Source: a virus
DNA: 20,057 nucleotides
IMG/VR virus record: IMGVR_UViG_3300015360_000248
Location: 1 to 20,057 of that record
Direction: 5' to 3' (one strand)
The position numbers and the translations under genes were made by a program. A model generated the notes under the pieces. It was not told where the DNA came from. It worked only from the letters and a program-made list of their open reading frames with translations, and made no database searches. Of this stretch, positions 17,597 to 19,381 are shown one piece after another; the first letter of the stretch is position 1, and the number at the start of each line of letters is the position of its first letter.

Positions 17597-17605
17597 GGAG
17601 GCGTG

Positions 17606-18244
17606 ATGGTGATTGAACTTCTACACGCTGCGGCCGCAGAGCACGGGCTGACGCTGGTCAAAGAAGTTCCGCTGACTGTTTGCCTGCCGTCTCGGCCAGA
17701 CGTGATGACCTCTTTAGCCATGCCGTCGCTCGCAGAGCTGCATGCCGGGCTGAGTGACGCGCGCGCCCGGCTGGATCAATTCGTCGCCGCGAACCGTCGT
17801 CAGCCACCGGCCGCGCCGCCCGACAGCGCCGCCGTAGAGTTGAACCCAAAGCGTGAAGAGCGCACAACGACGCCGTGCGCCAAAAACGATCCCAAGAGCC
17901 CTTGCGCGCAGGCGCGTGAACATAAGTCTCTTGGCGTTGCGTCTCTGTTGAAGGCCACGACGTCCCCCACGGTTGACGCGCGGATCGCGGCGGAGCGGCT
18001 GGACGTGTGCCGGAGCTGCCGGGCGGTCGATTCGGGCGGTGAGCGTCTCTTTCGAGAGATTGAGGCGCTGCACTTTTGCGGCGCGCCGCGCGCCTTCGCA
18101 GGCGGCAAAATTCCGTCACTCAAACAGCTCATCAAGACCTACCGCGATGAAACCGTAGATGGTTGCGGCTGTGAGCTGTCCGACAAGGTCCAGTACAGCG
18201 CCGCTGAATGCCCGCTCAAACTTTGGTCCGCCGTCCGTATCTAA
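17606..18244 (+). CDS. Zinc-finger-like protein with C-terminal Cys motif
   Basis: This 212-residue protein starts at ATG 17606; AAGGAGG (17595-17601) is 4 nt before it, while GTG 17603 is too close. The N-terminal ~65 residues are helical. The middle (~65-105) is Pro/Lys/Glu-rich and disordered-looking. The C-terminal ~90 residues contain LDVCRSCRAVD, HFCGAP, DGCGCELSDKVQ and AECPLKLW. The C-x2-C, CG, GC-x-C-x-L-x-x-K, C-P-x-x-x-W order is one I know from small phage zinc-binding proteins without assigned function. It may help assembly of the Cys-rich proteins upstream, but that is inference from neighbourhood alone. Confidence 0.6.
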   Translation: MVIELLHAAAAEHGLTLVKEVPLTVCLPSRPDVMTSLAMPSLAELHAGLSDARARLDQFVAANRRQPPAAPPDSAAVELNPKREERTTTPCAKNDPKSPCAQAREHKSLGVASLLKATTSPTVDARIAAERLDVCRSCRAVDSGGERLFREIEALHFCGAPRAFAGGKIPSLKQLIKTYRDETVDGCGCELSDKVQYSAAECPLKLWSAVRI

Positions 18245-18289
18245 AAAGTACGCAGGCGACACCCCCACTTTTTCAGGAGGACGGAACGT

Positions 18290-19057
18290 ATGGACCCATT
18301 GAAGCCCGGAGAGAAGACATCGGAATTCGAAGTCAATCAGTCATCGGGAGCATGGGGCAATATCGCCGTGCTCCTCGGCACCATCGGCCCGGCCGGGCTT
18401 TCCGCGTTCGGCAACCTTTCCGATACGCACAAAATCATCGTGATCGTCTGCGGCGCGCTGATCGCCATCTTCGGGCTGATCACCAAATGCATGGCCGACG
18501 TGGCCTACATTCGCGGACGCAGCGAACTGAAAGCCGCCAGCATCCAGGCGGAAGCCGTCGTGTCCCCGCCCAAATCATTGCTACTACTGTTCGTGCTCCT
18601 GCCGCTGCTATTGATCGCCAGCGGATGCAGCCGGACTAAGGAGGAGGCCGACGCGCAACAGTTGAAGCGAAGGGCGCTGGCGCAATACGTCGCCAACACG
18701 AACGCGATTCACGACGCTGAACAGAAGGCGTATGTGATGAGCGAGAAAGAGCACGCTGAGACGTTGCTGCAACAGGGCTTGGAGCGGCTTAAGGAGAAGG
18801 CTGGCCCAGACGGGAAGGTTGACCCGGTAGCCGCCAAGGTCTGGGTGCAAATGTTGATCCGGGACCGTGACGCCTACATCGCCAAGGCGCACGACAACGT
18901 GGCTCAAATCCGCGTGCAAATCAGTGAAGCGGACAGGGACATGTACAGCGCGCTGAAGCTGGATGAGCTGGTCGAGCGCGCGGCCGGGCAAGGCATCGAC
19001 ATCAAGACCATCCAGCCGTTCATCGATTCGATTCTGGACATCGTCAAGCGCAAGTGA
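18290..19057 (+). CDS. Holin-like membrane protein continuous with a lipoprotein-like half
   Basis: This 255-residue frame joins two recognisable parts. Residues 1-80 open with PGEKTSEFEV and have two hydrophobic segments (~22-40, ~48-66), resembling small phage holins that begin GYKTTEF. Residues 96-112 are a third hydrophobic segment ending in LIASGC (lipobox, C113), followed by a charged, coiled-coil-rich domain (SRTKEEADAQ through IVKRK). AGGAGG (18275-18280) is 9 nt before the ATG. A GTG at 18560 (codon 91) gives M-S-P-P-K then the hydrophobic run and lipobox, a classic lipoprotein signal. The locus may make a holin-lipoprotein fusion or a nested lipoprotein resembling an outer spanin. 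Lysis is the likely role. Confidence 0.6.
   Translation: MDPLKPGEKTSEFEVNQSSGAWGNIAVLLGTIGPAGLSAFGNLSDTHKIIVIVCGALIAIFGLITKCMADVAYIRGRSELKAASIQAEAVVSPPKSLLLLFVLLPLLLIASGCSRTKEEADAQQLKRRALAQYVANTNAIHDAEQKAYVMSEKEHAETLLQQGLERLKEKAGPDGKVDPVAAKVWVQMLIRDRDAYIAKAHDNVAQIRVQISEADRDMYSALKLDELVERAAGQGIDIKTIQPFIDSILDIVKRK
18560..19057 (+). CDS. Possible nested lipoprotein from an internal in-frame start
   Basis: Starting at GTG 18560 the product would be 165 residues: MSPPKSLLLLFVLLPLLLIASGC, with a short basic N-terminus, a hydrophobic core and a lipobox, then a helical periplasmic domain. Only a modest AGGCGGA (18546-18552) sits 7 nt upstream. It shares the reading frame of the full-length protein, unlike Rz1, which lies in a different frame from Rz. 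Whether it is made is unknown. Confidence 0.35.
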   Translation: MSPPKSLLLLFVLLPLLLIASGCSRTKEEADAQQLKRRALAQYVANTNAIHDAEQKAYVMSEKEHAETLLQQGLERLKEKAGPDGKVDPVAAKVWVQMLIRDRDAYIAKAHDNVAQIRVQISEADRDMYSALKLDELVERAAGQGIDIKTIQPFIDSILDIVKRK

Positions 19058-19135: not shown

Positions 19136-19381
19136 ATGACACACACCCCGAAGACATCACCCGCCGCCAGCACTCCAGACGAGACGTTCGGCCAATCGCC
19201 GTTCGCTGGCAAGAGCCCCGTCAGCATCGTTGAGCAGTTAGACCGCAAGATCGAAAGCATTCCTCACGATCAAGTCCAGGCGACCTACGACGCGGCCGTG
19301 AAGGCCATGGAAGCAGGAAAGCTGGCACCCGGCGCGGCGCTGAAGTCTGTCGCGCAGATGCTGTTCGGCCTCCTGAAGTGA
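19136..19381 (+). CDS. Small hypothetical protein
   Basis: This 81-residue protein is not recognised. The first ~30 residues are Ser/Thr/Pro-rich and probably disordered (PKTSPAASTPDETFG). The remainder is helical, SIVEQLDRKIESIPHDQVQATYDAAVKAMEAG and LKSVAQMLFGLLK, with an amphipathic C-terminus. GAAAGGAA lies upstream of ATG 19136. Its last codons overlap the next gene in a GTGA junction. It follows the lysis-type gene, so it could be a late or a lysis accessory protein. Confidence 0.6.
   Translation: MTHTPKTSPAASTPDETFGQSPFAGKSPVSIVEQLDRKIESIPHDQVQATYDAAVKAMEAGKLAPGAALKSVAQMLFGLLK

Follow-up and report, generated by a model that had tools for sequence, protein, structure and literature searches.

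A single open reading frame downstream of the tail genes

The window spans an entire virus record (20,057 bases) and carries portal, terminase, major head, major tail, and tape-measure genes, along with a tail-fiber-like gene (26-1561) that features repeated TALNASNLGSGTIPDARFPATLP units. Located 3' of the tail genes is a single frame of 255 amino acids (18290..19057; all window features below are on the + strand) that reads uninterrupted from ATG 18290 to TGA 19057 and has a single-frame homolog in a syntenic prophage of genome G255, discussed below. Judged from its sequence, the frame is composed of a predicted holin-like module, an internal lipoprotein signal, and a helical lipoprotein domain. 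The preliminary description of this locus reported two hydrophobic segments after PGEKTSEF, a third with a lipobox, and a helical part with no intervening stop; translation, hydropathy, and AlphaFold2 (AF2) modeling bear out each of these features.

The holin-like module (residues 1-88; 18290..18553), as defined by a family profile and alignment with relatives, includes the motifs G-E-K-T-S-E-F and Y-I-R-G-R-S-E-L-K. A hydropathy scan (19-residue window) places a weak first transmembrane (TM) segment at residues 25-43 (18362..18418; hydropathy 1.5; AF2 helix 12-37) and a second at residues 49-67 (18434..18490; hydropathy 2.6; AF2 helix 45-85). These are followed by a basic linker, AASIQAEAVVSPPK (residues 82-95; 18533..18574), with no AF2 helix at 86-95; in the alignment, relatives encoded by separate genes terminate at this position. 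The third segment, KSLLLLFVLLPLLLIASGC, includes Cys113 and corresponds to the third hydropathy peak (2.4, residues 96-114) and the AF2 helix at 96-111. It resembles a signal peptide (residues 96-113, SLLLLFVLLPLLLIASG-C; 18575..18628): K95 provides the basic n-region, 17 uncharged residues from Lys95 to Cys113 provide the h-region, and the lipobox (residues 110-113, at the end of LLLIASGC) conforms to [LVI][ASTVI][GAS]C as IASGC, although it is internal to the frame rather than at its N-terminus. G112-C113 is preserved in G255 and both relatives in a second genome, G309. The predicted mature lipoprotein domain (residues 113-255; 18626..19054) is all helical in the AF2 model and collinear with the G255 protein, and residues 115-255 contain no hydrophobic segment (hydropathy maximum 0.68). 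The model is of moderate confidence (mean pLDDT 71, pTM 0.36), and Foldseek returned no match to it at E<=0.001.

The gene upstream (17603..18244) encodes a Cys-rich protein ending in CGC...CPLKLW that matches PHROG 13558 (E=5e-9), and its counterpart, at 32% identity, also precedes the G255 homolog. The G255 version (L301 / G255:C1:567248-568507) is 419 amino acids in length and features a glycosyltransferase-like extension absent from the window version. The next gene downstream (19136..19381; 81 amino acids) occupies the position of an 86-amino-acid gene in G255.

A two-TM family with holin-like features

The N-terminal half is, by profile comparison, a member of a family of small membrane proteins that we refer to as GxKTSEFW. 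Its hallmark is G-x-K-T-[ST]-E-F-W, and most members are 57-120 amino acids in length with two TM segments and a terminal Y-x-x-x-R-x-x-x-K; in place of the Trp that follows F, the window has Glu and G255 has Lys. A profile built from 36 viral GxKTSEFW proteins matches window residues 2-88 at E=3.1e-7, compared to 0.1 for the best of 999 shuffles. We gathered the family with DNA patterns: G-x-x-K-T-S-E-F-W recovered 43 viral stretches, two broader patterns recovered many more, and one genome scan yielded 10 stretches, some of them from Planctomycetota. The pattern matches L211 and L212 were set aside as chance, and L323-L325 are generic matches. Direct searches of IMG/VR and phage records with the whole window protein returned no match, and nine proteins from family loci (holin-like, one joined, and three lipoproteins) matched no PHROG and no Pfam entry at the curated cut-off. 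Two variations were also observed within the family. In L262:4377-4592 and L157, the KTTEFW-type domain occurs twice in tandem within one frame, giving four TM segments by duplication, and the module in L171 and L200 continues into a C-terminal part that on visual inspection resembles helix-hairpin-helix (ComEA-like).

Holins are typically small proteins of one to four TM segments encoded beside an endolysin. Two TM segments are predicted in the window protein; no endolysin is recognized in the window, while endolysin-like genes neighbor its relatives. Phage lysozyme, GH25, GH108, M15, SLT, and Hydrolase_2 domains were recognized in a set of 94 neighbors of family loci, and GH24, GH108, or M15 endolysin-like genes directly adjoin family genes in several of them. 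Identified by motif, hydrolase genes lie directly 5' of the holin-like gene in L128 (M15, -8 nt), L086 (M15, -54), and L193 (GH108, -155). Based on these sequence contexts, the label "holin-like" is fair, if provisional, for the family. Alternatively, GxKTSEFW proteins may not be holins and the locus could serve a membrane/lipoprotein function other than lysis, such as superinfection exclusion. Neither half matches a lysis family and the neighbors in many family loci are structural genes, as such a function would allow, but the adjacency of small two-TM proteins to lipoprotein genes, the endolysin-like neighbors, and the late position after the tail genes render it improbable.

A syntenic prophage of Planctomycetota

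A syntenic relative of the window is a prophage in G255, a Planctomycetota genome. Homologs of 13 window genes are arranged in matching order in this prophage, with identities of 59% for portal and head and 48% for terminase. Following its Cys-rich gene is a single-frame protein of 256 amino acids with the layout GEETTEF, two TM segments, YIKSRTAVK, LALAGC, and a helical part; in pairwise comparison, it is 26% identical to the window protein over 222 amino acids (E=1e-21). When the lipoprotein halves were compared alone, similarity was not significant, and we base their proposed homology on synteny and position, length (143 vs 144-145 residues), and collinearity rather than on a sequence score. 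The family match of the N-terminal half and the same single-frame architecture in a syntenic prophage indicate, at the level of sequence, that the window architecture is not due to chance.

The G255 prophage also suggests that the window virus likely infects a Planctomycetota host. Searches of the viral collections with the window terminase, portal, and other genes recovered distant relatives or none, with no synteny, and 195 Myxococcota genomes yielded no true relative; the single match was an unrelated OmpA-type lipoprotein. Within the same class as G255, the holin-like part ends at a stop codon in G440, G325, G275, and G370, and other lipoproteins follow the holin-like gene in the first three of these.

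The G255 lipoprotein has also exchanged its N-terminal partner. At two loci in G309, a homologous lipoprotein (E=2e-18 and 1e-8) follows, in frame, a non-holin N-domain of soluble appearance, which is itself homologous (E=3e-10) to the separate 86-amino-acid gene located 3' in G255. The presence of either kind of N-terminal part indicates that this lipoprotein tolerates a long N-terminal extension, with Cys at residues 94-113. The 81-amino-acid window gene has no detectable similarity to the G255 gene or the G309 N-domain; the G255/G309 pair alone holds. In L313:9168-10414 (G309:C46), the single-frame lipoprotein gene is directly preceded by a 94-amino-acid TM and coiled-coil gene and a patatin-like phospholipase gene (DGGGMRG), and this locus may be an atypical lysis cassette that includes a phospholipase.

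Split and joined arrangements among relatives

Across 143 non-redundant viral members, a separate lipoprotein gene lies within 400 nt in 61, either at <60 nt past the stop (25) or at 60-400 nt (36), and several of the 25 close genes overlap the holin-like stop by 1, 4, or 8 nt. No lipoprotein gene was found in 69 of the remaining members, another 6 are truncated, and in 7 the lipobox lies within the holin-like frame itself; these counts are regex-based and approximate. These sequences indicate that two genes are the usual state of the holin-like protein and lipoprotein. One small lipoprotein family (S-R-V-V-F-V...R-L-G-P-D-V-R-G-x-V-Y...L-P-E-G-W-Y) is located 3' of the holin-like gene in many phages (L058, L091, L097, L116, L170, and others), and L097, its sole tested member, matched no Pfam or PHROG entry.

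Joined frames with a lipobox are present in L093, L121, L181, L198, L265, L273, L277, L296/L303, G255, and the window. The 7 viral cases were picked by lipobox search and their lipobox is not independent evidence; G255, G309, and L303 were chosen otherwise. Two further loci, L087 and L123, feature an SPase I-type signal in frame instead of a lipobox (PGLANA-Q and GPLSA-Q), and Pro-rich repeats (PLGGPPRQ / LPIPGDPRQ) share the frame with their holin-like part and signal. L076 encodes, as a separate gene, a lipoprotein homologous to the lipoprotein part of L198 (37.5% over 72 amino acids, E=1.4e-10), which provides a direct pair of the same lipoprotein in joined and separate form. Furthermore, both members are joined in two divergent pairs, L093/L277 (E=1.5e-18) and L087/L123, which indicates that the joined state persists. 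A proposed relationship of the L303 lipoprotein to those of L056 and L235 was discarded since similarity was not significant. The holin-like and lipoprotein genes of L291 (Planctomycetota) are in the same frame with a TGA between them.

We conclude from these sequences that the joined arrangement is recurrent and found in unrelated phages. The syntenic G255 homolog and the independent joined cases rule out a sequencing or assembly frameshift as the origin of the window frame. The preliminary description had reasoned that a stop codon between the halves in homologs would count against a joined gene; such stops occur in distant relatives, where the genes are separate, and not in syntenic G255. 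Its suggestion that one frame either fuses the two parts or encodes two products is upheld and extends to relatives, and the evidence below favors a single polypeptide.

One product or two

Initiation at ATG 18290 is preceded, at a distance of 9 nt, by the Shine-Dalgarno (SD) sequence AGGAGG (18275..18280), whose anti-SD duplex of -10.3 kcal/mol ranks in the best 0.6% of random window positions. Full-length starts of other single-frame genes mostly rank high as well (G255 0.4%, L198 1.4%, L314 3%, L265 4%, L093 5%). No good SD precedes the N-terminal start chosen for L121, L181, and L273. The in-frame GTG noted in the preliminary description before the lipoprotein-type signal is indeed present at codon 91 (18560..18562), 23 residues through Cys113, and its product would be MSPPKSLLLLFVLLPLLLIASGC.

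This GTG could indicate that the locus encodes two products in one frame: the full-length protein, begun at ATG 18290, and an ordinary lipoprotein made from a same-frame nested gene, a layout that would match the dual starts of lambda S or Rz1 within Rz in economy. The lipoprotein of most relatives has its own gene and start. In 8 of 12 single-frame cases, a start codon 21-25 residues before Cys could begin a plausible signal peptide, where roughly a quarter is expected from a codon frequency of 5.2%; the window (GTG) and G255 (TTG) are among the 8. With this excess, an internal start may be used in some single-frame genes, among them that of the window. The window GTG (-5.8) and the G255 TTG (-6.2) also have modest SD-like energies. 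Internal starts overall, however, are near background, at the 15th (the window GTG) to 95th percentile with one at 9% and none better. The GTG by itself is unremarkable since an in-frame ATG, GTG, or TTG occurs in 53% of 16-codon windows across the genes of this phage, and neither the codon nor its exact position is conserved between the window and G255. Moreover, four of the 12 (L121, L181, L198, and L273) have no ATG, GTG, or TTG 17-32 residues before Cys and, barring non-standard starts, their lipoprotein could hardly derive from anything but the long chain. We therefore regard two products from one frame as unlikely for the window.

The geometry of the third segment bears on the fate of a single chain. 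In 12 of 12 lipobox cases, 14-21 uncharged residues separate K/R (His in one) from Cys, a span that fits a signal peptide and not a stable TM helix. Our main sequence-based argument for use of the internal lipobox within the long chain comes from proteins that show this geometry yet have no internal start. The chain could instead remain an uncut fusion, with the third segment a normal TM helix (or Cys113 lipidated and uncut) and the helical domain tethered to the holin-like part at the inner membrane, much as in an i-spanin that has additional TM segments. The modeled C-domain, long and helical, would resemble i-spanins in kind, and Pro-rich linkers occur in the window, L198, L181, and L123; yet each lipobox case combines a signal-length stretch with a lipobox, the remaining two cases (L087 and L123) carry AxA-type sites, and relatives make a free lipoprotein. 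An uncut product is, in our estimation, a little less probable still than internal initiation.

Proposed processing at the internal lipobox

The reading that we narrowly favor is one polypeptide processed at its internal lipobox by host Lgt and LspA. A single translation from ATG 18290 would yield a protein whose N-terminal, holin-like module spans the membrane twice in the N-in/C-in orientation and leaves the linker in the cytoplasm. The conserved basic Y..R..K end and the helix-hairpin-helix-like part after the L171 and L200 modules would place both module ends in the cytoplasm. The third segment would then insert N-in/C-out in the manner of a lipoprotein signal peptide; Lgt would lipidate Cys113 and LspA would cut before it. 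The predicted products are a holin-like protein with a cytoplasmic tail and signal stub and, in a 1:1 ratio, a 143-residue helical envelope lipoprotein. We infer the insertion topology, lipidation, cleavage, and lysis role of the window gene; lysis timing by the N-terminal part and an envelope role for the lipoprotein would follow from genomic context.

A precedent for part of this pathway is LtaS of Staphylococcus aureus, which signal peptidase SpsB cuts between the TM domains and the enzyme domain (PMC11898559) and which illustrates a type I peptidase acting after TM segments. The proposed cut is likewise between TM segments and an extracytoplasmic domain, but SpsB is a type I peptidase and LtaS is a cellular enzyme without a lipobox. 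No precedent emerged from the literature searched for LspA cutting a protein downstream of two TM segments. Extended to the other joined genes, this model suggests, with close to an even chance of being correct, that tailed phages repeatedly evolve holin-lipoprotein polyproteins that are matured by the host lipoprotein signal peptidase (SPase I in L087 and L123) into two lysis proteins. Such proteins would be a bacterial counterpart to the signal-peptidase-cut polyproteins of animal RNA viruses.

Relation to known lysis systems

Phage lysis genes are known for economical layouts, including dual starts (lambda S) and embedded or overlapped spanins (Rz1 within Rz). The window gene resembles the two-TM holins of tailed phages in its short module, two TM segments, charged C-terminus, and, in relatives, adjoining endolysin-like and lipoprotein genes. 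It differs in that it has no Pfam or PHROG holin match and runs on into a signal-like segment and a 143-amino-acid lipoprotein domain. Similarly, the late-gene lipoprotein beside a membrane protein and the helical domain recall two-component spanins (Rz/Rz1), but the in-frame partner is holin-like. We do not retain the earlier "spanin-like" label for the lipoprotein half, as no spanin family is significant (PHROG 456 Rz-like, E=0.37; Pfam none). The unimolecular spanin T1 gp11 also combines a lipobox and TM segment in one polypeptide; u-spanins, however, feature an N-terminal lipobox and C-terminal TM, a layout that does not fit the window protein with its N-terminal TM segments, internal lipobox, and lack of a C-terminal TM. 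The known i- and o-spanin gene layouts are embedded, overlapped, or separate (spanin survey PMC6139136), and neither a keyword search of that survey nor the other literature searched identified a holin-like protein and lipoprotein in one frame with an internal lipobox.

Overall, the joined gene is a real, recurrent arrangement and a probable variant of the phage lysis-cassette layout, and its N-terminal half defines GxKTSEFW, a widespread two-TM family that is absent from Pfam and PHROGs. If the protein is cut by LspA, then Lgt and LspA would be able to act on substrates whose TM segments precede the lipobox, two lysis proteins would be made in fixed 1:1 amounts, and signal-peptide predictors restricted to N-termini would miss such lipoproteins.
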